The position numbers and the translations under genes were made by a program. From a virus, in IMG/VR virus record IMGVR_UViG_3300022187_000140, positions 1 to 30,827 of that record: DNA of 30,827 nt. The stretch is one strand, 5' to 3'. Position 1 is the stretch's first letter. Each line of letters begins with the position of its first letter. The notes beneath the pieces are model-generated. The model saw only the letters and a program-made list of their open reading frames with translations. It was not told where the DNA came from and did no database searches. Of this stretch, positions 1,338-30,632 are shown piece by piece.

Positions 1338-1344
1338 ATTAGAC

Positions 1345-2546: not shown

Positions 2547-2558
2547 ATTTTATTTATT

Positions 2559-2852: not shown

Positions 2853-2880
2853 TTTATTTGTTTTTAGTTAATATAAAGTG

Positions 2881-2927
2881 ATCTTGACACATAGGGGGTG
2901 CCTGGCAAGTGCGCCCTCTGTCGAGAT
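2881..2927 (+). promoter_or_regulatory. Long structured hairpin in leader of DnaA-like gene
   Basis: The arms ATCTTGAC (2881-2888) and GTCGAGAT (2920-2927) pair over 8 bp. After a 4-nt one-sided bulge (ACAT, 2889-2892), AGGGGGTGC (2893-2901) pairs with GCGCCCTCT (2911-2919) over 9 bp, with three G-U pairs in total. The loop is CTGGCAAGT. The hairpin is far more GC-rich than its surroundings and lies in the only gap of nearly 100 bases in the left arm, 24 bases before the preferred ATG. No U-tract follows, so it is not an obvious terminator. It could be a cis-regulatory RNA or a processing site. Confidence 0.6.
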
Positions 2928-2951
2928 ATTAATAATCCAAACTGTATAATT

Positions 2952-3461: not shown

Positions 3462-4123
3462 CACTAAGTAGGAGGATACTTGATTGGGAGTGGTACACAG
3501 ACCCCAACACGATGAGAGTATTTATCCATTGCCTTATAAAAGCAAACTGGAAGGAGAAAGAATGGAGGGGTGTTGTGATTGACAGAGGAACCTTTGTAAC
3601 ATCTGGAGATAAGATGTCTGATCAACTCAACCTTTCTAGGAAGCAAATATTAACTTCTCTAAAAAAATTAAAAAAAACTGGAGAAATTATCACAAAAGGG
3701 CACAGCAAATATACGCTCGTAACCGTTGTAAAATATGATGATTACCAAAAAATTAATAAGGAGGAGGGACAACAAGGGCACAACAAAGGCACAACAAAGG
3801 TACAGCAAAGGGACACAACTAACAATAATAACAATAATAACAATACAACAAAAGATTATTTAAATTATAAGGGCGTTGCCCAAAACTTTGAAGAGATCAT
3901 GCAAGAGGAGCAGTATGTCAACTTCATGATGGATAAGTATAACATGTCTAAAGGCAACTTAGAAAAGTACTACTTAGAGTTTAATGATCACCTTGAGCAC
4001 ACCCTTGACACTGTGAAGAGCACCAAAGAGTATGCAGCACATTTTCTAAACTGGTACTGCAACAAATATAAAGTAGATAGAAAGACTGGAAGACCTAAAC
4101 TAAGAAGAAAGAACTCATTATGA
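3443..4123 (+). CDS. Replisome organiser / helicase-loader-like protein
   Basis: This is a probable replication initiator of 226 residues. Residues 1-100 resemble the winged-helix N-terminal domain of phage replisome organisers (ITLSRRILDWEWYTDPNTMR, then LSRKQILTSLKKLKKTGEI). A low-complexity Gln/Thr/Asn linker at about 105-135 includes eight consecutive Asn. A helical C-terminal domain (NMSKGNLEKYYLEFNDHLEH, then AAHFLNWYCNKY) follows and would contact the helicase. The gene lies directly upstream of the primase-helicase with an ATGA overlap. The linker-coding DNA carries iterated 11-bp units and an AT-rich tract, as in lambda gene O. Confidence 0.75.
   Translation: MSESFITLSRRILDWEWYTDPNTMRVFIHCLIKANWKEKEWRGVVIDRGTFVTSGDKMSDQLNLSRKQILTSLKKLKKTGEIITKGHSKYTLVTVVKYDDYQKINKEEGQQGHNKGTTKVQQRDTTNNNNNNNNTTKDYLNYKGVAQNFEEIMQEEQYVNFMMDKYNMSKGNLEKYYLEFNDHLEHTLDTVKSTKEYAAHFLNWYCNKYKVDRKTGRPKLRRKNSL
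3766..3820 (+). repeat. Five in-phase 11-bp iterons, candidate origin
   Basis: Five consecutive 11-bp units start at 3766, 3777, 3788, 3799 and 3810: GGGACAACAAG, GGCACAACAAA (twice), GGTACAGCAAA and GGGACACAACT. The period is about one helical turn and is not a multiple of three. The encoded peptide is therefore not repeated, and the repetition exists at the DNA level. The array lies in the linker region of the replisome organiser gene, where lambda and related phages place initiator-binding iterons. Confidence 0.65.
3821..3870 (+). other. AT-rich tract next to iterons, candidate unwinding element
   Basis: Of 50 bases, 44 are A or T (88%). The first part is AAC/AAT repeats encoding polyasparagine and the rest is ATTATTTAAATTATAA. 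It directly abuts the iterons, as the AT-rich unwinding region does in the lambda origin. It could alternatively be plain low-complexity coding DNA. Confidence 0.5.
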
Positions 4124-5907: not shown

Positions 5908-6218
5908 TGGGAAGACCTAAAAAACAACCGACATCTGACTTTGTCACAAAGCACATTCACCAGAATGCAATGGCGTTTTGTATATCAAATGGCATACAGA
6001 TACACCCTATTTTGCTTAAGAATAAAGAATTTAAACTAAACATAAGAATAGATCGTGGCGGTTTAATCAAGAACATAGAATCACCCGTCAACTACAGTAA
6101 ACATGAGCTAACTGGTAAAATCTATGAGCTATACTTACACTACTTTAAGAAGATGGCAAATGCGGATGTCATAAGAAAATCAAGAAAAAAATACATTAGT
6201 TTCAAAAATAATACATAA
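5907..6218 (+). CDS. Hypothetical protein, 103 aa
   Basis: This is a basic 103-residue protein starting MGRPKKQP, an AT-hook-like Gly-Arg-Pro core. A mixed domain (IQIHPILLKNKEFKLNIRID) and a C-terminal basic helix follow. The start overlaps the primase-helicase stop (TGATG), so co-expression is likely. Basic character and context suggest a nucleic-acid-associated role, but no family is recognised. Confidence 0.75.
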   Translation: MGRPKKQPTSDFVTKHIHQNAMAFCISNGIQIHPILLKNKEFKLNIRIDRGGLIKNIESPVNYSKHELTGKIYELYLHYFKKMANADVIRKSRKKYISFKNNT

Positions 6219-6228
6219 ATTTGTGAAA

Positions 6229-6534
6229 ATGAATACAATAACCTTGTACCAAAGAGAATACAATAAAATAAAACAACCCCGATTCAACATTCAAGAGTTG
6301 GACGTAAATGCATTTTGCGAAAGGATAACAGGATTCAAGACTAAGTCTGAAAAAGAAAAGATGGATGCTTTGTTGGAATTAGACACTATGCTTTATACTC
6401 AGCTTGGGACAGACTCAAGCGTTAAAGATAAGAAGGAAACTAAAAAGAAGTCCAGAATAATTTACAGGGCTATTAAGACCTTCAACAAAGAGGTTGGAGA
6501 CCAACTACTCCAGCATATGGATCCAGATGTATGA
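6229..6534 (+). CDS. Hypothetical protein, 101 aa
   Basis: This is a Lys/Glu-rich helical protein of 101 residues, with RITGFKTKSEKEKMDALLEL followed by a basic KKETKKKSR patch. An in-frame GTG at 6223 would add two residues, and the ATG at 6229 is preferred. The TGA stop overlaps the ATG of the next small gene. Its function is unknown. Confidence 0.7.
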   Translation: MNTITLYQREYNKIKQPRFNIQELDVNAFCERITGFKTKSEKEKMDALLELDTMLYTQLGTDSSVKDKKETKKKSRIIYRAIKTFNKEVGDQLLQHMDPDV

Positions 6535-6701
6535 CACATAGAATTAGGTTCATAGAGAGATTAAGAGACAATCTACATTCATCTGTAGACAGAATAATCG
6601 ACTCTCTATACAGACCTGATTTTACTGAGACAAAAACTACAATAGCTCAGACAAAGGTTGATCTGGAAAGACTTCAAAACCAAATCAAAGAAGATGACTG
6701 A
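6531..6701 (+). CDS. Short helical protein, 56 aa
   Basis: This small gene joins its neighbours by ATGA-type overlaps on both sides (start at 6531 inside GTATGA, end inside ATGACTGA). It reads MTHRIRFIERLRDNLHSSV, and after SLYRPDFTETKTT a second helix ends QNQIKEDD, giving a helical hairpin-like profile. Perfect junctions with both neighbours support it as real despite its size. Its function is unknown. Confidence 0.65.
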   Translation: MTHRIRFIERLRDNLHSSVDRIIDSLYRPDFTETKTTIAQTKVDLERLQNQIKEDD

Positions 6702-7851
6702 TCAAAAAGAGCAAATCAAAAGTTTAGCGGAAAAGTACTTTAAGGATGGGCACAGAAGCCCTACTGAAATAGCAAAGTACATTCACGAGGATTTACAAAT
6801 AGATCCTGAAGAAAAAACTGTAGAGTCTACAAGGAGACATGTGTCTAAGGTTCTACAGAGAATCACAAGAACAGAAGAGCAACCAGCCCTAGCTAGTGCT
6901 TGTGAAGAGAGAGGTATTGACATTAGTAGTGTAGGGATAGCGTGGTCAAAGGATAAGAAGTGGTCAATACAGTTTAAACCAAACAAAGACAGCGGTCCTA
7001 CGTTTGAACAGATGCTTGAAGACCACATCGATGCTGTTAAAAATCACACATTTAGTTATGAGAAAATTGAGAGAACAAACAATCCTGATGGCTGCTTACT
7101 TGTTATTGATCCTGCTGATGTACATATTGGGAAGTTAGCATCTTCATTTGAGACAGGAGAGGATTACAACTCACAAATTGCAGTTAAAAGAGTTAAAGAA
7201 GGGGTAGAGGGAATCCTTGAAAAAGCATCAGGATTTAAGATTGACAAAATTGTCTTTGTTGCAGGTAATGATATCCTCCACATAGACACCCCTAAGAGGA
7301 CGACTACGAGCGGAACTCCACAAGACACAGATGGAATGTGGTATGACAACTTTTTAATCGCTAAGAGGCTCTATATTGACGTCTTAGATACATTGATTCA
7401 AGTGGCAGATGTACACTTTATGTTTAACCCATCAAACCACGACTACCAGAGTGGGTTCTTTTTAGCGGACTCCATAAGCTCTTGGTATAATAACTGTGAA
7501 AACATTACCTTTGACACTTCAATTGCACATAGGAAGTATTATCGATACCACACAAACCTTATCGGAACAACACACGGAGATGGAGCGAAGATGCAAGACC
7601 TTCCTTTGCTTATGGCTCAAGAAGCTAGAGAAGATTGGTCAGCATCAAAGAACAAGTATGTGTACATACACCACATACATCACAAGATGTCTAAAGACTT
7701 CATCGGTGTCACTGTTGAGGCTCTTAGATCTCCATCTGGAACTGATTCCTGGCACCACAGAAAGGGTTATCAGCATGCACCTAAGGCGGTTGAAGGATTT
7801 ATTCACTCAAAGGAGCACGGACAGATGGCGAGACTAACACATTTATTTTAA
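6694..7851 (+). CDS. Calcineurin-like metallophosphoesterase with N-terminal HTH
   Basis: This is a probable two-metal phosphoesterase/nuclease of 385 residues. The conserved blocks appear in order: DVHIGK (Asp142, His144), GND (191-193), SNHD (Asn248, His249), THGD (His294, Asp296) and HHIHH (326-330). Residues 5-55 (KYFKDGHRSPTEIAKYIHED, then ESTRRHVSKVL) look like a helix-turn-helix. The start at 6694 forms an ATGACTGA overlap with the preceding gene. An in-frame ATG at 6658 adds 12 residues but lies within that gene. A DNA-processing role, of the SbcD or phage MPE type, is inferred from context. Confidence 0.85.
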   Translation: MTDQKEQIKSLAEKYFKDGHRSPTEIAKYIHEDLQIDPEEKTVESTRRHVSKVLQRITRTEEQPALASACEERGIDISSVGIAWSKDKKWSIQFKPNKDSGPTFEQMLEDHIDAVKNHTFSYEKIERTNNPDGCLLVIDPADVHIGKLASSFETGEDYNSQIAVKRVKEGVEGILEKASGFKIDKIVFVAGNDILHIDTPKRTTTSGTPQDTDGMWYDNFLIAKRLYIDVLDTLIQVADVHFMFNPSNHDYQSGFFLADSISSWYNNCENITFDTSIAHRKYYRYHTNLIGTTHGDGAKMQDLPLLMAQEAREDWSASKNKYVYIHHIHHKMSKDFIGVTVEALRSPSGTDSWHHRKGYQHAPKAVEGFIHSKEHGQMARLTHLF

Positions 7852-7946
7852 TGACACCTTACGATATAGCTAGATTTATCTCTATTGTTGTTGCCATAGC
7901 CTTGTGGGTTTATTTTTTTTATAGCTCAAGAAATGGATTCAAATAA
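7851..7946 (+). CDS. 31-residue single-pass membrane peptide
   Basis: This very short gene shares one base with the preceding stop codon (TAATG). The peptide has a polar N-terminus, a hydrophobic span of about 17 residues (FISIVVAIALWVYFFY), then SSRNGFK. It would be a small inner-membrane peptide. It overlaps the next frame by 14 bases. Candidates include a small membrane regulator or a holin-like peptide, but nothing in the sequence decides this. Confidence 0.55.
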   Translation: MTPYDIARFISIVVAIALWVYFFYSSRNGFK

Positions 7947-8214
7947 ACAAACTAGAATATGCGACTGTTGGCTAGATGTTGGTCAGTGTCAATGTGAAAT
8001 TAAAAACAAAAAAAATGAAGGAAAACGAGCTAATTCAAATGAGGAATCAAATAAAAAATGTAGTGGGGATGCAGCAAGCAATCCTAAGTCAACTACAAAA
8101 CCTGAAAGACCTCTCGATTGGGACGCTAGAGACCTTAAAGCGTATGGATGGGTACCAAAAAGCAGTAGATCAACTGAAGGAAGATATACAGACAGATTCT
8201 GGGAAGAAGACTGA
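7933..8214 (+). CDS. Possible Cys-rich small protein overlapping the next gene
   Basis: The frame starts at an ATG overlapping the end of the membrane-peptide gene. It begins MDSNKQTRICDCWLDVGQCQ with CxC pairs that could bind a metal. From about 8015 it overlaps almost entirely with a convincing coiled-coil gene in another frame. It may be a real overlapping gene of 93 residues. Alternatively its first part may belong to a fusion with the next gene through a +1 shift at the A8 run at 8008-8015. Both readings are open. Confidence 0.35.
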   Translation: MDSNKQTRICDCWLDVGQCQCEIKNKKNEGKRANSNEESNKKCSGDAASNPKSTTKPERPLDWDARDLKAYGWVPKSSRSTEGRYTDRFWEED

Positions 8215-8233
8215 AGAAATAATAAAGGAATGA
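8015..8233 (+). CDS. Small coiled-coil protein
   Basis: This encodes 72 residues with long amphipathic helices (ELIQMRNQIKNVVGMQQAIL, then LETLKRMDGYQKAVDQLKED). The stop overlaps the next start (ATGA), which supports this frame. An in-frame ATG at 7976 would add 13 residues that overlap the Cys-rich frame, and the ATG at 8015 gives a cleaner start. It could be a virion or replication accessory factor, but no family is recognised. Confidence 0.6.
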   Translation: MKENELIQMRNQIKNVVGMQQAILSQLQNLKDLSIGTLETLKRMDGYQKAVDQLKEDIQTDSGKKTEEIIKE

Positions 8234-8436
8234 CAGACCCAATAGTGTCTATGGTTATCGCTCAGTTCAGAAGCAGGAGCAAGAGAGGAATTGAAAAGTA
8301 TAACACCACGTTAGCTGAAAATGACCTATCTTTGGTCGAGTGGCTTGAGCATGCTAAAGAAGAGGCAATGGATCAAGTTCTGTATCTAGAAAGAGCTATC
8401 AATGAAATTAGATCCAAAGAAAATAGTATTCAATAG
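8230..8436 (+). CDS. Small phage protein, 68 aa, MazG-like in look
   Basis: This helical protein reads VIAQFRSRSKRGIEKYNTT, then SLVEWLEHAKEEAMDQVLYL. The R-(S/K)-x-K-G-I-x-K-Y ... W-x-x-H-x-x-E-E-x-M-D-x-x-x-Y-L pattern recurs in small phage proteins. The EExMDxxxY helix recalls half of a MazG-type nucleotide pyrophosphatase, but a full catalytic set is not visible. It starts by ATGA overlap with the previous gene and is overlapped by the next. Confidence 0.65.
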   Translation: MTDPIVSMVIAQFRSRSKRGIEKYNTTLAENDLSLVEWLEHAKEEAMDQVLYLERAINEIRSKENSIQ

Positions 8437-8863
8437 GAAGTTGACCTTGTCAGAGGCTATAAAAGCCTACACTATATTGAATGAAACTTTGTTTTTAGAC
8501 GATCGAGATTCACACTACTACTATGTTATAATTAAAAACGAGTTTGATATATTCATCGAAACAATAAATGATGTAGAGGTTTATTGGTTTGCCAACAAGC
8601 TAGAGGTTACTGACAGACAAGCCGTGATGTGCTTATGCGAATATCCAACCTTCTGGGAAAACCTGAAGGATCACTTGTACATGTGTGGCATAAACGACTA
8701 CAAGAGGTATAGTGTGTTTACTAAGGGTGACCTAATGGGAACTGATGACAGAACTTGGGAAGAGTATATAGGAAGTGATGAGAATGATGCTATGCAGTTT
8801 TACACTGATATACTGCTGATAGACGATATAATCTCAGTGATAGAGATAGAGGATGAAGTATAA
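8402..8863 (+). CDS. Hypothetical acidic protein, 153 aa
   Basis: This is an acidic, aromatic-rich protein of 153 residues (DSHYYYVIIKNEFDIFIETI, then VMCLCEYPTFWENLKDHLYM) ending in IEIEDEV. The start at 8402 overlaps the previous gene by 35 bases, and the end overlaps the nuclease gene by 11. The family is unknown. Its position suggests an early accessory role. Confidence 0.7.
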   Translation: MKLDPKKIVFNRKLTLSEAIKAYTILNETLFLDDRDSHYYYVIIKNEFDIFIETINDVEVYWFANKLEVTDRQAVMCLCEYPTFWENLKDHLYMCGINDYKRYSVFTKGDLMGTDDRTWEEYIGSDENDAMQFYTDILLIDDIISVIEIEDEV

Positions 8864-9308
8864 AAGAAGAAAGGGTGGAAAGCAAATAACTAGATCCACC
8901 AAGGTTAAAGAGGATGGTATTGAGTTTGCCTCCAAGCTTGAGCTGTATATGTACAGAGCCCTGAAGAAGGCTAAGATAAAGAATAAGTATGAAGGTAAGA
9001 CGTTCACTATCATCAACGGCTGTGACTTTCCTATGGCATCTTTCGAAAAGACTAAGTCTAAAAAAATATTACACGACAGGGGCAATAAGAAGCTATTAGG
9101 AATTAAGTATACTCCAGACTTTATAGACGTACAAGATCCCCCACGATTCATAATAGAGACTAAGGGCAACCCAAATGAGAGCTTTCCTATACGCTGGAAG
9201 CTGTTTAAGATGCATTTAGTGAACGAGGGGATACAAACAAACCTATTTATGCCACGAAATCAAAAAGATTGTGACGAAACTATTGCAATTCTAAAAAATA
9301 TACTGTAA
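8853..9308 (+). CDS. PD-(D/E)XK endonuclease, DUF1064/resolvase-like
   Basis: This is a probable structure-specific or nicking nuclease of 151 residues. The catalytic set is visible as DGIEFASKLEL (Glu30), TPDFID (Asp89) and IETKG (Glu102, Lys104). This is the spacing seen in DUF1064 and T7 endonuclease-I-like phage nucleases. A basic N-terminus (MKYKRRKGGKQ) would aid DNA binding. It is the last gene of the rightward arm, and a strong intrinsic terminator follows 40 bases after its stop. A Holliday-junction resolvase role fits the recombination and replication genes upstream but is inferred. Confidence 0.8.
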   Translation: MKYKRRKGGKQITRSTKVKEDGIEFASKLELYMYRALKKAKIKNKYEGKTFTIINGCDFPMASFEKTKSKKILHDRGNKKLLGIKYTPDFIDVQDPPRFIIETKGNPNESFPIRWKLFKMHLVNEGIQTNLFMPRNQKDCDETIAILKNIL

Positions 9309-17056: not shown

Positions 17057-18004
17057 TTAGATGAAGCTCTTAGATGCCTCTGTATTGACTGAAAATAATT
17101 CAATCTTAGAAGTGCTACTATTTGTAAGCCTGATATTTGCAAAATAACCCTTGAGTCCATAGCTTTCTGCTACGGGAGCTTTTGCTGCAAATATGTAATC
17201 ATTTACTGTCGGTGTGACAGCTGATGCACTTGTAGTGATAGAGCTACTTGTAGTTGCGCTAATTGTTCCTATCTTTTCGTATGAGTTTGCTGTTGATTTG
17301 TATAAAACGTCTCCTATTGAAACCTCAGAGGGCACATCTTGTACCGAAAAAGTATTTGATGAAACCCCTAATAGTCTCCCTATTCCTTGCACGGACAATA
17401 GCTCTGTGTTCACTTCATCCGTAGAGTTTCTTCTTATGTAGGAGTAGTGAAACCCTTCTTTCTTTTCAAAAGAAGTTTTGTCTATGTGACCAGAATCAAG
17501 GTCTGTTGTTATTGTTACATCAAAGTCTTTTGTGTCTCCCTCAATCTCTATTGTCTTAAACACCTTAACCTCTGATGGTCCATCGTTCATTGTAAACTCT
17601 ATCTCAGAGTTATATTCATCACCATAGAATGTATTCCTTACAGTGTCGTTTGCGTGATGCTTGTAAAGCTGACCGTTCTTGAATGTATAAAAATCACCAT
17701 TAGAGGACACCATAGACTCTGGCTTCCAAGAGTGAAATGTTGTCCAACCATTTACATACTCACTAAAGCTAAGTGTGTAGTCATTAGCATTTGTTTGTGT
17801 AGGGTTAGGCATAGACTGTATTGATGGTGTAGTTGTTGTAGCCGTGATACCTGTAGGCAGGTTGTTTACTGGGCAACTATCCGACAAGTACTTTTCTATG
17901 TAATCGTCCTGACCTGATACGTTTGCTTTTGTTACATTCGTAGGCTTGCCATTTATGTACTTTCTGAGTGTCTTAACTACTTTATATCCTGATCTAAATT
18001 TCAT
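17057..18004 (-). CDS. Virion structural protein, 315 aa
   Basis: This is a beta-rich protein. Its core reads SFSEYVNGWTTFHSWKPESM, then GDFYTFKNGQLYKHH, then IEFTMNDGPSEVKVFKTIEI. This pattern (surface loop, Phe/Tyr-rich strands, Asn-Asp-Pro-Ser turn) is seen in structural proteins of environmental phages, but its place in the particle is not known. The C-terminus is Ser/Thr-rich. It follows the probable fibre gene by 13 bases and belongs to the same transcription unit. Confidence 0.6.
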   Translation of the reverse strand: MKFRSGYKVVKTLRKYINGKPTNVTKANVSGQDDYIEKYLSDSCPVNNLPTGITATTTTPSIQSMPNPTQTNANDYTLSFSEYVNGWTTFHSWKPESMVSSNGDFYTFKNGQLYKHHANDTVRNTFYGDEYNSEIEFTMNDGPSEVKVFKTIEIEGDTKDFDVTITTDLDSGHIDKTSFEKKEGFHYSYIRRNSTDEVNTELLSVQGIGRLLGVSSNTFSVQDVPSEVSIGDVLYKSTANSYEKIGTISATTSSSITTSASAVTPTVNDYIFAAKAPVAESYGLKGYFANIRLTNSSTSKIELFSVNTEASKSFI

Positions 18005-18017
18005 ACTACAAATTTAA

Positions 18018-21000
18018 CTAATTACATTGATCATAATTTGGTAAGGATGCTACATCTCCTACCTCGTCTACAAAACCATCTGAGTTGATATGTATATAAT
18101 TCTTGTTATACTTATCTGCAAAATCTAGCTGAACTGATGAATCTGGATTTATTCTTCTGTATATTGAAGCTTGTTCAGTAGTTCTCGATCCATAATACCC
18201 CGATATAAACTCAGTACTAGTATAGTCTGAGTAAAACTTAAGTCCTATTGTGTTTATATCCCCAGAATTTGTGAATATATTGCTTGAAACATTGCCATTG
18301 AAAAATGTCGGAACAGTGTATCCATCAGAATTTCTTTTAGGAAAACAAAATATAACATCACCATACAAAGGTAAGCTGCCGTTAATGGATCTATAGTGAC
18401 TGTTTCCAGTCCCTAGCGTTGTTCCACCACTGTACATGCCTAGTATATGAGTAAAATTGTAATTAGACGGAGTAGTTAATATAGGTCCATTTGCTGGGTC
18501 AAAAAGATATTCTATTGATTGTCCAGATGCGACTTGTCTTGGTCTATCCCCAACTGTTAATTCGACTCTAGAATATGTTTTTAAATTAGTGGCTGCATTT
18601 GCATTGCTTCCTTCTGGGTCTGATCTCCAAAAACCATTTACATAAACTTTAGGAATAAATCCATAATACAAGAAAGCATCCCTAACAATATAGTGTCCGA
18701 GTTGTGTTAAACCTGAAGTTCCAAAAGAACCTGACACAAGAGTTCCATTATTTGCTGGGTTCGGGACAAGAGATGTAGGCGCATCGCCCATATCAAATAT
18801 GCCTTGATAAGTTGTATACTGTTGATTCGACACTGTGTCTAAAACAACTGGAAGAGTTTTACTTAATACAACTATATCAAATACTCCGTCAAATTTGCGC
18901 TGATCTCCATTACCAGTTGTGAATACTATAGAAAAAGGATCGTCAGAATAAACTTCATAATAATAACCTTGATTAGCTGATGCCTGTGTTAATGTAGTTC
19001 CAGAAGGAAGGGTTGGTGTTGTAATCGTTGTAAATATCCCTGTGTTTGAAATTGTTGGAGATGGTGGCGATGGGATTATAGTCACCCCAAATTCACTATC
19101 CTGAACGGATTGTCCGTGTGATATAAATACTCTATTTTCTTCTTCGTCTACAAAAATATCAGAAACACGTTTTATTAATTTAGATGAGCTGTAATCATAG
19201 TCTTTAAGTAGAGTCCAGTCTTCTATTATGTCAGACACATTCACAGAATAAGATCCGTTAAGAGTATGACCATACGTATGTGTTGTTCCACTTCCTGTGT
19301 TATGGAAAAAATAAATTGTCACTGATCCAGGCATTCTTATATCAGTAAACGCACCAGATGTTCCAGGAGTTCCATTTACAGTTACTTCTGTAGTGTATTG
19401 ATTTGCGTATTGTAAACCAGAAGCAGACTCAGTAGAAAATAATATTTGTTTTCCTGTATTTGAAGTGTCACTTTGATCAAACCTAATTACACTTCCTTTC
19501 GGAGCTGAAATTTGTTGGTTAAATGATGAAGTGCCGTCTATAACAAATATATTATTGCTTGGTGATGGAGTGTAAGTTTGTACCGTGACAACCTTGGTCG
19601 TAATAGTATTATAATCTGTTGCATCTGTCCATGACGTAGGAACTGTGCCTCCTAGATTTGTGTTTTCTCCTTTTATATTCATTCTCATAAATGAATTGAA
19701 AAGACCAAAAGACAAGGTGTGTGATCCATTGACGACTCCTTGTCGATACGGTGTGTTTCTTTGAAAACTATCATTATACGTTCCTGTAACAAAATACACG
19801 TTTCCGTTTTGCTCATAAGGAGAAGGACTGTCTTCTGGATATACATAAGTGCTCCCATTTGTGTGTGTGTCACTTATGGTTGGTAAATCTGCCACAGTCC
19901 AATTTATTCCATAGTTCCAAGAAATTGCATATTGTCCCATTCCAGTAAAAACACACAATCCATTATTTAGCACTAAAAAAGGAACAGATTTATTATCTAC
20001 ATCTAGTTCAATATAATATGTTTCAAATGAGTCTACACCAGTTTTTTCTGGACTTCCTTGAGAAAACCGTCCAGCTACTATAGGTTTTATGACGCAGTCA
20101 TCGCTAGTAGTATTATTATCTTGACTAGGAAAATATCTATATAAAACTGAAGTATATTGAGGAACCCCGTTTTGATCTATATATCTAGCACCTACACCTC
20201 TATATATAAACAAATAATCATACTCAATACTAGCGTATATTCGTACACTGCCAAATCTGTGCAATGTAGTGGCTGTACCAGACCCTGTGCCTCTTGAAAC
20301 TGACAATTCACCAAAAAAATCTGCGTTTCCTGTTTTTGTTTCATCAAAATTTAAAATAGAAAAGGAAACAGCGTTGTCAATTGATTTCGCTAAAAAAAGT
20401 TTGTTCTCAGCAGACGCTAAAGGACCTGATATATTTTGAGAATCATTTAACATACATAGTGCGTACCACACATGATTGCCACTAGAGTCTACTCCAGCAT
20501 AACAAAAGTCTTCTATGTATGTTTGTCTTCTAAAAGCTGCTAGTGATTGATTGTGCCCAAATGTTGCAACAAGTTGGCTGTCTGTAGGATTAAATTGACA
20601 TATTTGAAAATTAACTCCATCAGTTGATCTAGCTAATGTTCCTTGTCCAATTTGACCATCTTGTACAACTGATAAATAAATGTTGTTTTCTTTTTTTGAA
20701 AAAGAATAAGTAAGTGGATTATCAAACTGGTACTTTAGTGCAAAATTATATCCGTTAGTTTTTGAATGTAAAACTTCTTGGTAAGTGGTTGTTGCTCCAG
20801 TGCCTAGATATTCACAGTCGTCTATTTTAATAACGTTAAGCAAATCATTATCTTCCCTTTCTGCGGTTGAAGCTGATGTATACAAAACCACACAACTTTC
20901 TTCATACCTAATCCAATCTTTTGTAGATCTAAGACCATCATCAAATATCATGCTTGCTGTACCAAAATCTCCTGAGCAAGTTACTGTTATATCGCCCCAG

Positions 21001-21605
21001 TATATTGTTTTGGTCCCTGTATAAACAGAAGTAGAAACACTAACTGTTTTTGAATATTGTCCTGTCATAGATAAACCTGTACCAGATGTGTGTAAACAAA
21101 ATGCATCGTTTTCATTATCTATAAACCAAGCATATGTCTGCTGTGCTAGTGCTAAATATAAAGGATCAGACCCATAAAATGTAGTTGCGCTGTAGTTGGT
21201 TATAGGCTCAAAAAAGTTGAATGAAGGAACCCCACCTCTCATTACAATATACTCTGAGGTGTTAGCACATAAAAACTTTATTTTTTCTACATGTAGATTT
21301 AGTGTGATCTCGTTAGTGTTATCGTCAGAAGGATTTAAGTTTCCTGCTGCGTATTCAAGATTTATATTAAATGTTTGTGTGCCGTGTATACCATTTCCAT
21401 TTCCATCAACCTCTCTATGATCAGTTCCCGTTGTTATGGATATAGGAGTATTGTCTCCTGTCAAGTCCCACTCATCACCACCTATAGTCAATACATCAGG
21501 ATTTTGCACCATAGCATATCCTTCTTTTACTTTTATAGTGTATACACCTATATCTCCAGAAGAGTTTTCTGCCTTTGTAACGGTCTGTAAAAGCTCTATT
21601 GCCAT
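18018..21605 (-). CDS. Large tail fibre / receptor-binding-like protein
   Basis: This encodes 1195 residues, almost entirely beta-type and rich in Ser, Thr, Asn, Gly and Tyr. Several spaced motifs resemble BNR/sialidase propeller repeats: LARSTDGVNFQICQF (near 325), LFLAKSIDNAVSFSIL (near 405) and YAISWNYGINWTVADL (near 565). A DGxNF/YGINW turn follows a Ser-Thr/Asn stretch in these motifs. No catalytic sialidase set was identified, so binding rather than cleavage of surface glycans is the simpler idea. It lies directly after the tail-tube-like gene, the usual position for adsorption proteins. Confidence 0.55.
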   Translation of the reverse strand: MAIELLQTVTKAENSSGDIGVYTIKVKEGYAMVQNPDVLTIGGDEWDLTGDNTPISITTGTDHREVDGNGNGIHGTQTFNINLEYAAGNLNPSDDNTNEITLNLHVEKIKFLCANTSEYIVMRGGVPSFNFFEPITNYSATTFYGSDPLYLALAQQTYAWFIDNENDAFCLHTSGTGLSMTGQYSKTVSVSTSVYTGTKTIYWGDITVTCSGDFGTASMIFDDGLRSTKDWIRYEESCVVLYTSASTAEREDNDLLNVIKIDDCEYLGTGATTTYQEVLHSKTNGYNFALKYQFDNPLTYSFSKKENNIYLSVVQDGQIGQGTLARSTDGVNFQICQFNPTDSQLVATFGHNQSLAAFRRQTYIEDFCYAGVDSSGNHVWYALCMLNDSQNISGPLASAENKLFLAKSIDNAVSFSILNFDETKTGNADFFGELSVSRGTGSGTATTLHRFGSVRIYASIEYDYLFIYRGVGARYIDQNGVPQYTSVLYRYFPSQDNNTTSDDCVIKPIVAGRFSQGSPEKTGVDSFETYYIELDVDNKSVPFLVLNNGLCVFTGMGQYAISWNYGINWTVADLPTISDTHTNGSTYVYPEDSPSPYEQNGNVYFVTGTYNDSFQRNTPYRQGVVNGSHTLSFGLFNSFMRMNIKGENTNLGGTVPTSWTDATDYNTITTKVVTVQTYTPSPSNNIFVIDGTSSFNQQISAPKGSVIRFDQSDTSNTGKQILFSTESASGLQYANQYTTEVTVNGTPGTSGAFTDIRMPGSVTIYFFHNTGSGTTHTYGHTLNGSYSVNVSDIIEDWTLLKDYDYSSSKLIKRVSDIFVDEEENRVFISHGQSVQDSEFGVTIIPSPPSPTISNTGIFTTITTPTLPSGTTLTQASANQGYYYEVYSDDPFSIVFTTGNGDQRKFDGVFDIVVLSKTLPVVLDTVSNQQYTTYQGIFDMGDAPTSLVPNPANNGTLVSGSFGTSGLTQLGHYIVRDAFLYYGFIPKVYVNGFWRSDPEGSNANAATNLKTYSRVELTVGDRPRQVASGQSIEYLFDPANGPILTTPSNYNFTHILGMYSGGTTLGTGNSHYRSINGSLPLYGDVIFCFPKRNSDGYTVPTFFNGNVSSNIFTNSGDINTIGLKFYSDYTSTEFISGYYGSRTTEQASIYRRINPDSSVQLDFADKYNKNYIHINSDGFVDEVGDVASLPNYDQCN

Positions 21606-21615
21606 AATTTATATT

Positions 21616-24600
21616 TTAAGGAACCGTGTGGTCTACTTTTGAATTGTTGTTTATACTTATGCTAAATGTCGCTTGTGCGTCTCTAGTTGCGTCCAATGGA
21701 TATGGATCTTCAGAATCAGGAACTCCATCTCCGTCATCGTCTGTATCATTTATATCTGGCGTTCCATCTCCATCTGTATCTGTAGGCGTATCAGTCGCAT
21801 CTAACGGATCTGTACCAGCAGCTATTTCGTCTGCATCTGAAAATCCGTCCCCATCGTCATCTGTATCTGTTATATCAGGTGTTCCGTCTCCGTCTGTATC
21901 TGTAGGGGTGTCTGTTGCGTCTAGCGGGTCTGACCCTGCTGCTGTTTCATCGACATCACTAAATCCATCACCATCGTCATCTGTGTCGTAATAGTCTATA
22001 GTACTGTCTCCGTCTGTGTCTGTGGGTGTGTTTGTCTGGTTCTCAGGATCCGTTGGAAATGGATCACTATCATCAAGAGTACCATCGTTGTCATCATCCG
22101 TATCTGCGTTGTCACCCGTTCCGTCTCCATCCGTATCTATCGATTCATTAGGGTCTGTTGGAAAAACGTCTTGAGTGTCGACAACTCCGTCCCCATCATC
22201 ATCTGTGTCTGCATTATCACCTGTACCATCACCATCTGTATCAGTAGTTTCTGTAGGGTCTAAGGGAAATGCATCCGAACTATCTGGAGTACCATCACCG
22301 TCATCGTCTGTATCTGCATTATCTCCTGTTCCATCTCCGTCAGTATCTACTGACTCTGCAGGGTCTAAGGGAAATGCGTCTGTAGTATCAGGCACACCAT
22401 CGCCATCATCGTCTGTGTCTATAGAATCATCTATACCATCATCGTCTGTGTCTGTCTGGATCGATGAATCTGTTGGGTCATCATCTTCAGAGTCTGGTGT
22501 TCCATCATTATCGTCATCGGTATCCGTGTCATCTGGAATACCATCTCCATCAGTATCAAGTTCATCTACATCAGCAATACCGTCATTATCATCGTCTGGA
22601 TCAGCGTTGTCTCCAACCCCATCTCCATCTGAATCTGTAGTCTCATCAGGGTCTTGTGGGAATGCATCTGTTGAGTCAGGGGTGCCATCGCCATCATCAT
22701 CAGTGTCGGCATTGTCCCCAGTTCCATCACCATCAGTGTCAACGCTCTCTGTAGCATCATTTGGGAAGGCATCATCATTGTCGTTTACGCCATCCCCATC
22801 AGTGTCTGCATTCGTAGAGCTTGTGTCTATTTCTTGCGCATCTGGTATTCCATCATTATCATCGTCTGGATCATGTATGTCTAATATACCATCACCATCA
22901 GTATCTAATGTTATTTCTTCTTCAGGATCAAGTGGTGCTGAATCAGTAGCGTCAGGTATGCCATCTCCATCATCATCGGTGTCTGCGTTATCTCCTATTC
23001 CGTCCCCGTCTGTGTCTACACTTTCTGTAGCATCAAGTGGGAAGGCATCGTTTACATCTAATACTCCATCCCCATCGTCATCTGTGTCGATAGAATCTAC
23101 AGTTCCGTCACCATCCGTATCAGTATTATCATATAGTATTTCACACTCCACTTCATCCTCTCTCCACTCTATCTGTGTTCCTTTTAGTGAAAGAGAATAT
23201 TGTCTGTCTCTAGGGTCATATTGACCAATAGCTAAGGGAGGTAATCCAGCTGATAAGTTGTCGTTAAACCAATCAATCATTCCATAGTCTGATATCTGAG
23301 TGATGCCATCTTGTGATAACCTACAAACTACTCTCCTTCTCTCATCTACAAAATATATTCTACCACCCCAAAGCACTGTAGCAAATGGATTGCTAGTTAT
23401 TCCATACTCTCCTAGATAAGGTATATCTTGTCCCAGTATAGCTGTACTTGCTGTGATATTAGAACTACCATCAGCATTAAATAATACGTTTTTATTAAAT
23501 AAAAGCTTACTAACTTTGTTTTCTTGAAATACAACTAAATCAGCTTCTCTTGCAACTATTTTATTGATGTCTCCAAAGAAGTCATCCATATCCTTATAGT
23601 TTACATAAGCTAAATTAAACTCATTTAAGCCATTATATTTTGTTGTTTGATCATAAACATTACTATATGTAATTGAGGCTGTCCTGTGGTTCTTTTTGTA
23701 GTCCTTGAGGTTTGTAGAAGGTCTGTTCTCTAGCTCAAAAAACTTTGTATTAAAATCATCTTTGATTTTATATGATTCTAAGCAATTACCCCATGAAAAA
23801 ACATTAAAGAAATCTAGTGTTATGCTTGCAGGAGAGTTATGAGTTTGGCTAACGTCTACATCATCTCCAAACACTACTGTAAAATCACCTCCAGCATTTG
23901 TAAAAGATCCAGAACCACTTACGTAGTTGCTTGAATCCATATTGCCTACAGAAGGGCTGTTGTTGAAGAAAGTAATTCTAGTTCCTCCAGTTACATCATA
24001 TCTTTGAAAATACTGAACTGCAATGGTTATAGTGGCACTACCTTGTGTAAGCGTTAATTCTTTACCATTGCCATTACCAAAACTTCCGTTGTTTGGACCG
24101 CTTCCTCCAGTAAAATAATTTGCAAATGCTGTATAAGAATCAGTATCAAGAGCTATTTGAATTTGATAACCATTACTAGTAAAAGGATCAGATGAAAGTG
24201 CAGGAAAGTTATCCCAATTATCACTGTCTGGATAATTATTAGTGTTTGTGTATCCTATTGTGGAGGCTGCGCTTAAATTGGTATTTCCTTGTGTTAATGT
24301 AGAAGTATCTTCTGGCACTAGTCCAGCACCAACAGGTCCAGATTGGTGGTATCCTTGTGTTATATTGTATGTTCCAGGTATCTCGTAGAATATCTCTTCA
24401 TTTTTATCTTCTGGTCTAGTTTCGAATGACAATATATCTGATGACTGTCTTTTAAGAAAGCTAATAAGAGAGTCAATCTTTGGCTTTTTATCTAAAGCAT
24501 TATTTTTAGTGCCTAGAGACCTAATTATCATCAATATATTATCTGATGTACTGTTAGTTATTGTGGACTCTTTAGCTGCAAACGTACCCCTTAAAAAGAA

Positions 24601-26853
24601 TATTCTGTCCTCTGGAATGTCTGCGTTTAGGGTTGCTTTAGCTCCGCTTTCGTGATACCACTCTTCTATGTTAGCATAGTCTGCGTTAGCTGTAAACTGT
24701 TGAGCAACATATTGTGTTTCTTCATTAAACTCATCATAAACAAAGTCTACAATTGTTCCTAATGGTATTTCCTCTACTGCCTGATCAAATGATCTATAGG
24801 TGGCAAATGCTTTTGTGTTTGGAGTGTAGGGGAATGTAGATGGTCTTGCATTTACAGTCCATTTATCTCCTAGTGTATGACCAGTGTTTGAGGCAAAGTC
24901 AACACTTAACCCAGTTCCAGGTATAGCTATTGGCGTACCTGATGTTATGGATTGAGCAGTAGTTGTTGATCCTGTGTTGGGGTCATTGTCTAAAGTTTGT
25001 ACAGTAGTAGTAAAAGTATCACCTCCTGCGTTAACAGAATCAATTTCAATGATTATCCTTGAAAATATATTTGACGTTGTATAAGATCCAGATATAGTGA
25101 CGTCTGTTGCAAGTGCAGAGCCTCCAGACCCTGAATAAGGAAAAGGACCTTCAATATATGCCCCTACTGTTTGTGAATTTTTTAAAGGATCATCCCTATC
25201 GTTAGCTGTATCATCGTAATCATCATGCTCTGTAAGCTCATAATCGTCTGTAGAAACAGAAAACCCTACTGGCTTTATCTTCATATACAACCCAGCTTGT
25301 TGAGCTATTGGTGGATCGTTAGTGTCTGGGTAATCATCTGCCTCTAAAAAGTTTTTGTCTTGAAGTTTTATCTCAAGGACTTGAGTCTCAACTAAGTTTG
25401 TTTTTTGACCTCTTGTGTCTGCCTTTACTATAAGGAAATCACCTTCTTGTATTTTGTTTTTATCATTCCCATTTAGCTGCACATAAACATAACCAGTTTC
25501 TGCCTCATTATAAAATATAGAAGGAGTTATTGTGTCATACCTGCCTTTACTTTGTTTTACATAGAATCTGTAGTATTTAGCAAAAGCTGGTGGTAAATGA
25601 CTTATAGTTGCATTTATTTGGTTTTGAGTTTTTGAAGCACTCAGAGGAACATTTACCGTGGCATTATTTGATGTTATAACTGAAGTAGACCTTCCGTAGT
25701 CATCTAAATACACTATACCCACCTCATAGTCTACGTTTGACTTTATAGACTTAGCTACGCTTGGTGAGGTTATTTGAGATGTGTTAAGGGTTGCGTTTAT
25801 ATTAAAAGGTATAGCGTCTCCGTTTGCATCTTTTAAGTCAAAGTTTTCCGTATAGTTAGCATAAACGATCCTGTTACCTATCATTTGCTGCGTCTTAGCA
25901 GTAAGCGGAACATTGTCGTACACCCTTAGTAATTCTTTTTCTGGAAGAACACTATAGACTTTGCTGTTTGAGAACGTGTGTACCTTTGTGCTGTTATCAG
26001 CTATTGACTCTTCTTCCTTATTAAAAGTTTGAGCAACATATACATTGTTGCTGTTGCTTTCCTTAAAAACTAAGTCTATCTCTACAACATTACTTGTACC
26101 TGTTTTAAATGTAACATCTACTTGACTGTAGCTATTCACCATAGATTTATTTAAACCTGTAGCAAAATCAAAAGAAAAGTCACCTGGTAGAAAAGCAACC
26201 TCACTAAATGGAGAAAGTGCACTATATTCACCGTGTTTATACTTAAACCTATAGGCAAAATAAATAAACCTTTCTTTAATGTTGTTTTCATTAGTAGAAG
26301 AGGTGCCTAAAGATAACGTAGGGGCTTCAAGAGGTGGTTGTTGCACCACGTCTACATCGTATTTTGTAAATGCATTAGCATCTATAAGCTTTGCTGACTC
26401 TATCTCTATTCTTCTAGGTGGGTTAATGCCATCAGTAAAAAACAAAAACCTTTTATCGTTGTCAATATCTATAAGTATATTAGACTCTATAAAGTTTGTT
26501 TTGTAGAAGTTCAAGACATTAGTCTTCCAAGACCTTGTGTCTTTCAGGACAAAAGTAGAGCTGTCGTTGTCTACATCATACTCACATATGAATGAACCCG
26601 TATCAGACCTTACAAACCAATATATTTTATTATTAGCATCGTCAGACACAGACCCTATGGAAACTGGATTAGCGCCAAAGTCTAGCTGCGACAAACCTTC
26701 ATTTGAAGGTGAGTTTTCAATAGCCCCCACATCAGATGCAGATGAGCCAGAAACTCTTATATTTAGTGCGTCTCTATACTCTCCTTTTGGAACAAGCCTT
26801 TCATCAAGGTCCTTGTTCATTTTTCCAAGGTTAAATATGTTTTTTAACTTCAT
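21616..26853 (-). CDS. Tail-tube-like virion protein with C-terminal TSP3 repeats
   Basis: This encodes 1745 residues. The N-terminus (MNKDLDERLVPKGEYRDALN) and strand-rich body up to about residue 1235, ending IDWFND ... IGQYDPRDRQYSLSL, resemble large tubular/neck proteins of podovirus-like environmental phages, comparable in role to T7 gp12. A domain near residues 600-660 (FTTTVQTLDNDPNTG, then GHTLGDKWTVNA) recurs in phage tail proteins. From about 1244 to 1721 the protein is a chain of thrombospondin-type-3 calcium loops. The last 24 residues leave the repeat pattern (ATFSISINNNSKVDHTVP). It shares one base with the preceding gene. Confidence 0.7.
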   Translation of the reverse strand: MKLKNIFNLGKMNKDLDERLVPKGEYRDALNIRVSGSSASDVGAIENSPSNEGLSQLDFGANPVSIGSVSDDANNKIYWFVRSDTGSFICEYDVDNDSSTFVLKDTRSWKTNVLNFYKTNFIESNILIDIDNDKRFLFFTDGINPPRRIEIESAKLIDANAFTKYDVDVVQQPPLEAPTLSLGTSSTNENNIKERFIYFAYRFKYKHGEYSALSPFSEVAFLPGDFSFDFATGLNKSMVNSYSQVDVTFKTGTSNVVEIDLVFKESNSNNVYVAQTFNKEEESIADNSTKVHTFSNSKVYSVLPEKELLRVYDNVPLTAKTQQMIGNRIVYANYTENFDLKDANGDAIPFNINATLNTSQITSPSVAKSIKSNVDYEVGIVYLDDYGRSTSVITSNNATVNVPLSASKTQNQINATISHLPPAFAKYYRFYVKQSKGRYDTITPSIFYNEAETGYVYVQLNGNDKNKIQEGDFLIVKADTRGQKTNLVETQVLEIKLQDKNFLEADDYPDTNDPPIAQQAGLYMKIKPVGFSVSTDDYELTEHDDYDDTANDRDDPLKNSQTVGAYIEGPFPYSGSGGSALATDVTISGSYTTSNIFSRIIIEIDSVNAGGDTFTTTVQTLDNDPNTGSTTTAQSITSGTPIAIPGTGLSVDFASNTGHTLGDKWTVNARPSTFPYTPNTKAFATYRSFDQAVEEIPLGTIVDFVYDEFNEETQYVAQQFTANADYANIEEWYHESGAKATLNADIPEDRIFFLRGTFAAKESTITNSTSDNILMIIRSLGTKNNALDKKPKIDSLISFLKRQSSDILSFETRPEDKNEEIFYEIPGTYNITQGYHQSGPVGAGLVPEDTSTLTQGNTNLSAASTIGYTNTNNYPDSDNWDNFPALSSDPFTSNGYQIQIALDTDSYTAFANYFTGGSGPNNGSFGNGNGKELTLTQGSATITIAVQYFQRYDVTGGTRITFFNNSPSVGNMDSSNYVSGSGSFTNAGGDFTVVFGDDVDVSQTHNSPASITLDFFNVFSWGNCLESYKIKDDFNTKFFELENRPSTNLKDYKKNHRTASITYSNVYDQTTKYNGLNEFNLAYVNYKDMDDFFGDINKIVAREADLVVFQENKVSKLLFNKNVLFNADGSSNITASTAILGQDIPYLGEYGITSNPFATVLWGGRIYFVDERRRVVCRLSQDGITQISDYGMIDWFNDNLSAGLPPLAIGQYDPRDRQYSLSLKGTQIEWREDEVECEILYDNTDTDGDGTVDSIDTDDDGDGVLDVNDAFPLDATESVDTDGDGIGDNADTDDDGDGIPDATDSAPLDPEEEITLDTDGDGILDIHDPDDDNDGIPDAQEIDTSSTNADTDGDGVNDNDDAFPNDATESVDTDGDGTGDNADTDDDGDGTPDSTDAFPQDPDETTDSDGDGVGDNADPDDDNDGIADVDELDTDGDGIPDDTDTDDDNDGTPDSEDDDPTDSSIQTDTDDDGIDDSIDTDDDGDGVPDTTDAFPLDPAESVDTDGDGTGDNADTDDDGDGTPDSSDAFPLDPTETTDTDGDGTGDNADTDDDGDGVVDTQDVFPTDPNESIDTDGDGTGDNADTDDDNDGTLDDSDPFPTDPENQTNTPTDTDGDSTIDYYDTDDDGDGFSDVDETAAGSDPLDATDTPTDTDGDGTPDITDTDDDGDGFSDADEIAAGTDPLDATDTPTDTDGDGTPDINDTDDDGDGVPDSEDPYPLDATRDAQATFSISINNNSKVDHTVP
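21690..23125 (-). repeat. Thrombospondin type 3 calcium-binding repeat array
   Basis: About 480 codons consist almost wholly of acidic loops of the DxDGDGxxD type, alternating with DTDDDGDG and AFPLDPxE-type spacers. More than 20 acidic loops are visible. Near the 3' end a 40-residue unit (DTPTDTDGDGTPDI ... GFSDADEIAAGTDPLDAT) occurs twice in tandem plus a partial copy. The protein copies are nearly identical while many third codon positions differ. Confidence 0.9.
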
Positions 26854-27710
26854 TATTTAATCCACTTGTTGCGTCCTTTGAATGAGTGTACAATGTCAAA
26901 TGGATGTATATCCATCATTCTAATTTTCATGTTCTTCATTGCAGCAAACTGCTCGTTTTTCATTCTTCTAACTATGTACTCTTGAACACCAACCTTATAC
27001 TGAACTATTTGATATGCTATATATTTTATGAGAAAATCTTCTGCAAGCTTATTGACTTTTAATTCATCTTCTGGCAAGTACGCTAAACCATCTGTGATGT
27101 ACTCAATAACTACTGTTTTACTTTTAACTTCAGAGCTAAATCTTATGTACCCTAAGTTTTTATCTATGTTATATTTACCATTGACATTTGTTTTCTCTGT
27201 TGCCATTCCAAAACGACCACCGAAAAACTCATAGTCTAAGTTTGTAAACTGATCATTGTCAACCGTTGACACTTCTGCCAACTTTGTGTCTATTATTGAA
27301 GTACCCTCTGTGGCAGCTCCATCACTATCGAATATGATATTATATTCATCATCTTGTAGATAAGCTTTTGCAATAGTAGTTTCACTATCCATCATCAAGG
27401 GATGAAGCCTACCTCTATCGTCCACCCAAGACAATCTAACGAGCCTTACAAAGTCTTTTGGAAGCTCTAGCTGTAAATCATCAGGAAGATCTAATTCAAG
27501 CGCTCTAACGTCTTTTAAAGCATCATAATGAAGCTCTTGAAGACCTCTTTTTGCTTGATAAACTACATCATATCTACTAACATCGTTTATAATTTTCTCG
27601 TCACCTACATAGAATGCCATGAAGTTGTTGATAATGTCTTTCAACAATACAAATTGATTCTCCCCCCAATTAGTGCTATTTGTGTAATACTGTTGATCTG
27701 TAAGTGCCAT
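26853..27710 (-). CDS. Neck / tail-connector protein
   Basis: This encodes 285 residues. A repeatedly seen phage pattern is visible: NNFMAFYVGDEKIINDVSR, then VVYQAKRGLQELHYDALKDV, then LELPKDFVRLVRLSWVDDRG, and a helical C-terminus with FLIKYIAYQIVQYKVGVQE. This is the profile of head-tail connector or tail-tube-A-like proteins in environmental podovirus-like phages. It precedes the tail-tube-like gene and follows another neck-type gene by 3 bases, matching the usual assembly order. The exact family name cannot be verified here. Confidence 0.65.
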   Translation of the reverse strand: MALTDQQYYTNSTNWGENQFVLLKDIINNFMAFYVGDEKIINDVSRYDVVYQAKRGLQELHYDALKDVRALELDLPDDLQLELPKDFVRLVRLSWVDDRGRLHPLMMDSETTIAKAYLQDDEYNIIFDSDGAATEGTSIIDTKLAEVSTVDNDQFTNLDYEFFGGRFGMATEKTNVNGKYNIDKNLGYIRFSSEVKSKTVVIEYITDGLAYLPEDELKVNKLAEDFLIKYIAYQIVQYKVGVQEYIVRRMKNEQFAAMKNMKIRMMDIHPFDIVHSFKGRNKWIK

Positions 27711-28416: not shown

Positions 28417-28450
28417 AAAAAAAAGAGGAGCCACTTTCGTGACCCCCCTC
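28417..28450 (-). terminator. Intrinsic terminator with GAAA tetraloop
   Basis: On the minus strand GAGGGGGGTCAC (28450-28439) pairs with GTGGCTCCTC (28434-28425), with G-U pairs, around a GAAA loop. A U8 run follows (28424-28417). It lies between two virion genes that are otherwise collinear. Confidence 0.85.
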
Positions 28451-29254: not shown

Positions 29255-29286
29255 AAAAAAAAGGGGGACAGGAATCCCATCCCCCT
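29255..29286 (-). terminator. Intrinsic terminator directly after capsid gene
   Basis: On the minus strand AGGGGGATGGG pairs with CCTGTCCCCCT over 11 bp, including two G-U pairs, around an ATT loop. A U8 run follows. It begins 9 bases after the capsid stop codon and lies 22 bases upstream of the next gene's ATG. Confidence 0.9.
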
Positions 29287-29294
29287 AATTAATA

Positions 29295-30632
29295 TTACTT
29301 CAATAAGATAAAGTTGTTTGCTCCGTGAACACAAAGAGCTCTCTCACTTAAGAAGTGTACTTCCATAGCGTCTAGGTCGCTAGTCATTCCAGCATTACCA
29401 GCAGAACCAGTAATCCAAGACTTGTACTTGCGATCTTCAGCTTCTGACTTTCTGTACTTCACATGTAAGAAAGGACGTACAGCATTTTTACCTAGAACTT
29501 GGTCGTAGATAGTAGTTGTACCAGCAGGTACTAACACACCGTCTACAGCAGAAGTTAAGGCTCCAGTTGTAGCGTCATTTAAGTATTTCCAGTCAGTTTT
29601 GTAGAAATCATATCCTAAGTTGAATCCTTTGAATCCAAGGCTGATTGCCATTTCTTCATCGTTATCGAATAAACCGTAAGAGCTTGTAGAAGCACCGCTG
29701 TTGTTTTGTGCAGCAAGTACATTGTCAATCTCGAAAGATTTAGTTCTGTTAACGAAAAGAACATTCTCTTGGATCGCTCCTTCTTTGTCAAGAACTTTGA
29801 TAAGCTCTTCTAAGTCAGTGCGAGCAGCAATTGAACCAGTAGCAATGTTTCCTCTGTTTTCGATTTCGTAGAATAAACCTTTTGTCCCTTTGTATCCAGC
29901 AGTTTCAGCACCAGATGAAGCAACAGCAGGCTCCCCTTCGATAAGAGATAATTCCATGTAATCTTCGAAACGTAGACGAGTTTCATGCTCTGATTTTAAG
30001 TACCATAGGTATCCAGTAGCACCGTTCTCAGTAGTCACCTCAATCCATCCGATCTGCGCCATATCAGAACCATTGACTTCATACTTGTCTTTGATGATGA
30101 TAGGGTTAGTAGTTTGGATGTCTTTAGGAGCTTCTAAAGAACCACTCATTCCATTAGTTCCTTTCTTGAACTCAGAACCGAAAGCAAATACGCTAAGTCC
30201 AGTTGTTCCTACAGCAGCAGCTAAGTTTGCTCCAGAATAAGAAGCAACATCAAATGTGTTAGTAGTTACAGCTGTTACGATAGCTTTGTCTTGATCAGTT
30301 CCGTCAGAAATGATTACTGTTTGGTTTAAGCGGAAAGGGTGTCCATTTGACGTGATAACGTCTCCAGAACGAGTTGCTCCAGAAACAGCCAAGTGAAGTC
30401 TTCCTTGCTCAGACCATTGAATTACATCAGATTGGAAGGGCATCTCAGCTCCTACCATTCTTAAAAAAGCAGATACAGAACGATTTCCGTATTTTTCAAA
30501 TTCTGCTTCGTATACATCAGGTAAGTATTGAGAAGTAAACTCAATAGCAGAACCTAGATAGTTAGTCGATAAAGTCGACTTTGATGGAGCTGGTGTTAAC
30601 GCACCTTGTACTCCAGAAATAGTTACACTCAT
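29295..30632 (-). CDS. Probable major capsid protein
   Basis: This encodes 445 residues of mixed alpha/beta composition with an HK97-like look. An N-terminal segment (GSAIEFTSQYLPDVYEAEFE) and a helix (SVSAFLRMVGAEMPFQSDVI) come first. A central Gly/Ala/Thr-rich insertion (VTAVTTNTFDVASYSGANLA), a long helical spine (IAARTDLEELIKVLDKEGAI) and a C-terminal strand region (AMEVHFLSERALCVHGANNF) follow. Length, lead position in the virion operon and an immediately following strong terminator fit a highly expressed capsid gene. Fold assignment by eye is not proof; another abundant head protein is possible. Confidence 0.7.
   Translation of the reverse strand: MSVTISGVQGALTPAPSKSTLSTNYLGSAIEFTSQYLPDVYEAEFEKYGNRSVSAFLRMVGAEMPFQSDVIQWSEQGRLHLAVSGATRSGDVITSNGHPFRLNQTVIISDGTDQDKAIVTAVTTNTFDVASYSGANLAAAVGTTGLSVFAFGSEFKKGTNGMSGSLEAPKDIQTTNPIIIKDKYEVNGSDMAQIGWIEVTTENGATGYLWYLKSEHETRLRFEDYMELSLIEGEPAVASSGAETAGYKGTKGLFYEIENRGNIATGSIAARTDLEELIKVLDKEGAIQENVLFVNRTKSFEIDNVLAAQNNSGASTSSYGLFDNDEEMAISLGFKGFNLGYDFYKTDWKYLNDATTGALTSAVDGVLVPAGTTTIYDQVLGKNAVRPFLHVKYRKSEAEDRKYKSWITGSAGNAGMTSDLDAMEVHFLSERALCVHGANNFILLK

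Follow-up and report, generated by a model that had tools for sequence, protein, structure and literature searches.

What might a long array of thrombospondin type 3 (TSP3) calcium repeats do on a phage tail protein? The question is raised by IMG/VR record IMGVR_UViG_3300022187_000140, which was analysed over its whole 30,827 nucleotides (the window); related loci are designated by L numbers. The 30.8-kb record is classed as linear and is possibly a fragment. The virus is probably crAss-like, and its nearest isolates are phages of Cellulophaga, Maribacter and Tenacibaculum. The right half of the window is a minus-strand structural block with the gene order of Cellulophaga phage phi38:1, namely a capsid-like gene, three structural proteins, a long tail protein, small genes and very long genes (Table 1). 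Since the capsid-like gene lies nearby, the array gene sits within a structural module. Two good terminator-like hairpins were seen on the minus strand after the capsid-like gene (29262-29286) and inside the next gene boundary (28423-28450), and a promoter scan of the window gave chance-level results.

Table 1. Features of the window discussed in the text, with the evidence for each.
Feature	Position	Strand	Basis
Replication block: Rad52/22-like recombinase, HNH endonuclease, DnaA C-terminal domain, Toprim primase-helicase, DUF1064 protein	428-9308	+	
Muzzle C-terminal-domain gene (315 aa), with extra ~75-residue N-terminal module	17057..18004	-	Pfam crAss_MUZ_C; collinearity with phi38:1 gp097
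N-terminal ~75-residue module (MKFRSGYKVVKTLRKYINGKPTN...YLSDSCPV) of the 315-aa protein	17780..18004	-	Shared with the starts of distinct adhesin-like ORFs (L016, L041, L026)
Adhesin-like gene (1195 aa) in the slot between both muzzle genes	18018..21605	-	Conserved start, patchwork-variable rest
Muzzle N-terminal part plus TSP3 array (1745 aa)	21616..26853	-	Single ORF; phrog_14478 and crAss_MUZ matches
C-terminal 27-residue motif PLDATRDAQATFSISINNNxKVDHTVP, 3' of the array	21619..21699	-	Conserved in relatives
TSP3 calcium-repeat array, residues 1245-1718 (474 residues)	21700..23121	-	Pfam, motif count, 35-residue period, conserved ligand positions
Conserved EWREDEVECEIL motif at the cut propeller loop	23134..23169	-	Junction alignment; same motif in sister viruses
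Muzzle head, residues 1-1240 (ring-joining/propeller/crass-fold part by homology)	23134..26853	-	Flavophage homologues
Virion structural protein upstream of the muzzle	26853..27710	-	phrog_13977, E 1.6e-56; order as phi38:1 gp096
Major-capsid-like virion structural protein	29295..30632	-	phrog_13704, E 5e-105; 'major capsid' suggested by position relative to phi38:1

The array and its carrier protein

The 1745-aa protein matched both Pfam TSP_3 (48.9 bits) and TSP3_bac (43 bits), each with a cut-off of 25. Eight TSP_3 stretches were found in the window, two of them individually above cut-off, and none in 14 control genomes. The array holds 35 D-x-[DNS]-x-[DNS]-G motifs. Shuffling its residues left 3.7 on average (11 at most), and shuffling the whole protein left 2.1. 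The autocorrelation of aspartate has maxima at 35 and 70 residues. These results confirmed a real TSP3 calcium-repeat pattern. The preliminary description of this DNA, which had placed about 480 residues of TSP3 at 21690-23125, was essentially right in position and length. The C-terminal 505 residues of the protein carry a net charge of -189 and contain no cysteine. The array also occurs in independent contigs, of which L090 is 100% and L089 99.99% identical, while L009 is near-identical and has the same stop codon; it is therefore no assembly accident. Among complete genes, array length ranges from 434 to 697 residues. The 27-residue motif after the repeats is 96% identical in L009 and L099 and 63% identical in L109, with a similar one in L105. 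The array is predicted to bind calcium and to take an extended shape; it could also be a flexible polyanion and not a rod. The long Ser/Pro-rich ORFs opposite the array (21626-23224, plus strand) are shadows of the GAT-rich repeats and probably not genes.

The protein that carries the array had been described as tail-tube-like. Its head matched phrog_14478, a virion structural protein, with an E value of 2.2e-257, and Pfam crAss_MUZ with 47.3 bits (cut-off 27), the best stretch being residues 1080-1200 against positions 1042-1163 of the 1224 in the profile. Residues 1-1225 are homologous to structural proteins of Cellulophaga, Maribacter, Tenacibaculum and Flavobacterium phage isolates, including phi38:1 gp097. 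No PDB chain matched the head at E 0.01 in phmmer and profile searches, so its identity as a muzzle rests on Pfam, PHROGs and the homologues. From these matches we assign the carrier as the N-terminal part of a crassvirus-type muzzle (tail-tip) protein. The earlier assignment holds as regards a virion tail protein, but a muzzle is more probable than a tail tube. It was the muzzle family that matched; the T7 nozzle and the muzzle both have a ring-joining domain and a propeller (PMC10172136). By analogy, a five-domain fold that includes the crass fold and a hexamer at the tail end would be expected for the muzzle of the window.

The split muzzle and its cut loop

The C-terminal domain of the muzzle is absent from the array gene. 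It was found instead on the separate 315-aa gene, which matched crAss_MUZ_C with 58.1 bits (cut-off 27). Placed end to end, the two muzzle genes are collinear with the continuous gp097 of phi38:1 and with other unbroken relatives, in which the two parts are joined by a loop just a few residues long. The muzzle is therefore not a single polypeptide in the window, and the split is a trait of the larger clade to which the window belongs. In the tree of heads, a well-supported branch divides relatives whose muzzle C-terminal gene is separate from relatives whose muzzle gene is continuous, which suggests that the split appeared before the array. The ~75-residue module that heads the muzzle C-terminal gene has the consensus TGxKxVxTLRKYxxGxxTxxTKxN...YIxxxxDxxxC and also starts the adhesin-like ORFs listed in Table 1; it seems to be a docking module common to tail-tip proteins. 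Other cuts were observed as well. Relatives with an unbroken loop (L082, L087, L064, L108, L118 and others) have a second cut, in which the last ~100 residues form a separate small gene, other genes intervene, and a strand-like sequence such as KITITIVENND closes the first part. For Maribacter phage Panino (L122, 9001-12914), the annotation divides the muzzle into two genes at a further point, within the conserved head; this cut may be natural or a sequencing error.

The array begins at the cut. In seven relatives (L012, L014, L016, L017, L024, L033 and L041) the motif EWRExxxCE is followed by linkers rich in Thr, Ser and Pro, such as TPTPTPTATPTSTPT or long T or ST runs, and in several of them other domains follow. 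In the clade of the window, TSP3 stands exactly where these sisters have their linkers, immediately after EWRExxxCE. The strongest argument for the array as a stalk is this exchange of linker types at a single site. Farther relatives with an unbroken gene carry insertions of ~1000 residues between the head and the C-terminal domain. BACON domains at the same loop in L047 scored only below cut-off and were rejected. In sister clade B, the array runs on in one chain into a distal domain of ~535-930 residues, and the muzzle C-terminal gene comes directly next; in the clade of the window, the array is followed by the 27-residue motif and a stop, and the gene for the 1195-aa protein starts 10 bases on. 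Together these forms make up a natural series of a continuous loop, a Thr/Ser/Pro linker, a calcium stalk, a stalk with a fused distal domain and a stalk with a separate adhesin. The series marks one loop as a mounting point and bears on how crassvirus muzzles, which are believed to contact the cell and control ejection, connect to receptor-binding parts.

Two alternatives were considered here. First, the array might be a calcium sensor or trigger, with a changed calcium state at the cell surface altering the muzzle so that the ejection gate opens. The muzzle has been proposed as a gatekeeper that opens upon contact (PMC10172136), and the ligand positions of the array are conserved (see below). 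However, by homology the array sits on the cut loop, outside the gate, the plain linkers of the sisters imply that no sensing is needed at that site, and the length of the array varies. We regard a sensor as improbable. Second, array and 1195-aa protein might be made as one chain by frameshifting or readthrough, as could be imagined from the 10-base spacing of the genes and the fused distal domains of the sisters. A TAA lies two codons before the downstream ATG, in its frame and past the muzzle stop. This codon blocks readthrough as well as a slip within the array, and we rejected such a fusion as having almost no chance of being correct.

Distribution, selection and exchange

Array-bearing heads form one clade (10 of 10, support 100) in the tree of heads, and TSP_3 did not score above cut-off in the records of 50 other relatives, the sample being the best 80 loci and biased to the neighbours of the window. 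In a distant group (L108, L114, L115 and L118), which has a separate place in the muzzle tree, the muzzle is intact and an array occurs in a separate adhesin-like gene directly behind it; an unrelated phage (L113, L116 and L119) has one within a fibre-like protein. These placements suggest that TSP3 arose separately in the adhesin genes of other phages. The arrays of relatives were located in the muzzle or in a directly adjoining adhesin gene, and not in a non-tail gene. A 645-aa TSP3 protein was also noted at 6746-8680 of L097, a giant-virus-like contig with neighbours that resemble NUDIX, PhoH-like and collagen-like genes (by eye), which does not belong to the phage relatives. A tblastn search of the array against GenBank phages gave no match, although the low-complexity filter of BLAST may mask some.

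The idea that the array was acquired from a gene of a Bacteroidota host found no support. The nearest cellular arrays in the sample, at 50-56% identity, are from Chloroflexota, Gammaproteobacteria and Poseidoniia, and those of Bacteroidota scored lower. Because low-complexity repeats converge easily, similarity between repeats is uninformative on host origin, and we rejected this route to the origin since such repeats cannot carry that phylogeny.

Substitution patterns were then compared along the gene. The dN/dS of the array is 0.04-0.06 in most pairs, and 0.13 and 0.10 in two; the head is similar. The distal domains have values of 0.23-0.35. At calcium-ligand and glycine positions, the five pairs differ at 0/132, 2/174, 1/174, 1/174 and 1/104 sites, whereas the other array positions of the same pairs changed at 4/342, 27/523, 46/523, 46/523 and 37/293. 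Ligand positions are thus nearly frozen relative to the others, which argues that selection keeps the calcium-loop pattern; by this computation, purifying selection acts on the calcium-ligand positions. The same result bears on the proposal that the mature virion lacks the array or has it in disordered form, with a role in spacing or assembly at most. The stop that comes shortly after the repeats and the extreme charge would suit such a role, but purifying selection on the ligands is strong across divergent viruses, and removal would take the fused distal domains of the sisters with it. It has, in our judgement, little chance of being right.

The part beyond the array, whether fused domain or separate 1195-aa protein, diverges and recombines most. 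The window and L009 share ~99.8% of their backbone (heads ~100%) and only 82% of the 1195-aa protein. With L099 the relation is reversed, the heads being 78% and the 1195-aa proteins 97% identical, and L204 has the same values as L099. Within fused forms, L011 and L101 have heads of 97% and distal domains of 48% identity, and L093 and L101 have 63% and 77%, respectively. Breakpoints located by third-position max-chi2 fell in the array (codons 1685, 1484 and 1475), at its end (1827) and, in one case, within the adhesin, 78 codons from its start (1823); each far exceeded the permutations. Most crossovers therefore lie in the array or at its edge, and the repeats would be a tolerated crossover zone.

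The 1195-aa protein has a conserved start, the putative attachment end, and a hypervariable, horizontally exchanged remainder. Divergence and exchange of the distal part are the behaviour expected of a receptor-binding protein. One of the seven members of this family matched BNR/Asp-box (E 0.004), and the copy of the window had no Pfam match. A search of the PDB gave no match to the protein, and no sequence similarity was found between it and the fused distal domains. We consider it adhesin-like, a role that would follow from its evolution and not from a recognised receptor-binding fold.

Conceivably, the array itself could serve as the adhesin: as a sticky polyanion coated with calcium it would bind, or mimic, TSP3 proteins or polysaccharide of the host surface, and the downstream protein would attach elsewhere on the tail. 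Proteins of marine bacteria and archaea often contain arrays of comparable composition, the array of the window has no fused distal domain, and L012 has a homologue of the 1195-aa protein together with a muzzle that lacks an array, which indicates that the array is unneeded for carrying that protein. On the other hand, the array evolves as slowly as the head while the distal parts are fast and recombining, an unusual pattern for a receptor-facing surface, and in the sister clade it sits between the head and the distal domain. We therefore view the array as adhesin as unlikely.

Proposed mechanism and comparison with known systems

We think it rather likely that a calcium-ordered stalk joins the muzzle to an exchangeable adhesin and that its repeats are the crossover zone. 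Comparative evidence gives good support to a putative adhesin-bearing stalk. According to this mechanism, a loop of the propeller would have become a free C-terminus, to which 474 residues of TSP3 loops were appended. With calcium bound, the array would order into a stalk projecting from the tail tip, and its far end would bear the fast-changing receptor-binding protein at a distance from the tail. In clade B this would be the fused distal domain. In the clade of the window it would most likely be the separate 1195-aa protein; its docking on the stalk, perhaps via the 27-residue motif, is a guess that comes from the gene position and the fused sister forms. Six muzzle subunits per virion might each extend a stalk, by analogy with the hexamer of phi-crAss001. 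Binding to the cell surface would then pull on the muzzle, completed in trans by the 315-aa protein, and the repeats would act as a tolerant crossover zone when viruses exchange adhesins. The calcium-rigid stalk or adhesin that had been imagined earlier is favoured as a stalk by the same-site replacement of linkers, the fused distal domains of the sisters and the recombination of the adhesin; calcium binding and extension are predicted for it.

More tentatively, and with somewhat less than even confidence, we suggest that a crAss-like lineage cut its tail-tip propeller protein at a surface loop that is a general mounting point, that the repeats of its calcium-ordered TSP3 stalk double as a crossover zone for receptor-binding proteins, and that such stalks arose independently in the adhesins of other phages. 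The natural series described above makes calcium-dependent adsorption and modular change of host range directly testable. It would also widen the repertoire of phage tail appendages by calcium-loop stalks and by a propeller that is split and completed by a second chain at the tail tip.

The muzzle and TSP3 are known kinds; their combination, the split muzzle and exchange at the stalk had no counterpart in the open literature searched, in which no paper on TSP3 in phage tails was found either, and no stalk of this kind was met in the phage records searched. Gp44 of phi-crAss001 (crAss_MUZ, PF25731; crAss_MUZ_C, PF25729) is alike in that the head and C-terminal gene of the window match these families above cut-offs, and in its place in the structural block. 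It differs in that the muzzle of the window is split over two genes with a TSP3 array at the cut. The length of crassvirus muzzles is reported to vary by insertions in the crass and IG2 domain regions, and TSP3 or calcium repeats are not mentioned (PMC10172136). Gp097 of phi38:1 (Callevirus, Pervagoviridae) is homologous over residues 1-1225 and the C-terminal domain, and the gene order is alike, with a capsid-like gene, three genes, the muzzle and then later genes; however, gp097 is a continuous protein of 1324 aa, with no array and no adhesin gene in the loop. Pervagoviridae and Pachyviridae have been proposed as relatives of Crassvirales (PMC9855967).

Bacterial, archaeal and animal thrombospondin/COMP TSP3 (PF02412, PF18884; PDB 3fby, 1yo8) have the tandem DxDxDGxxDxxD loops in common with the array, which matched COMP in phmmer with an E value of 2.6e-17. 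Animal-type TSP3 has cysteine pairs between repeats, whereas the array of the window is cysteine-free and is borne by a phage tail-tip protein. The distant phage group and the unrelated phage described above are alike in that a large adhesin- or fibre-like protein contains the TSP3 array, and in the four loci of the former this protein adjoins the muzzle. They differ from the window in that the array lies in a separate gene, in those four after an intact muzzle.
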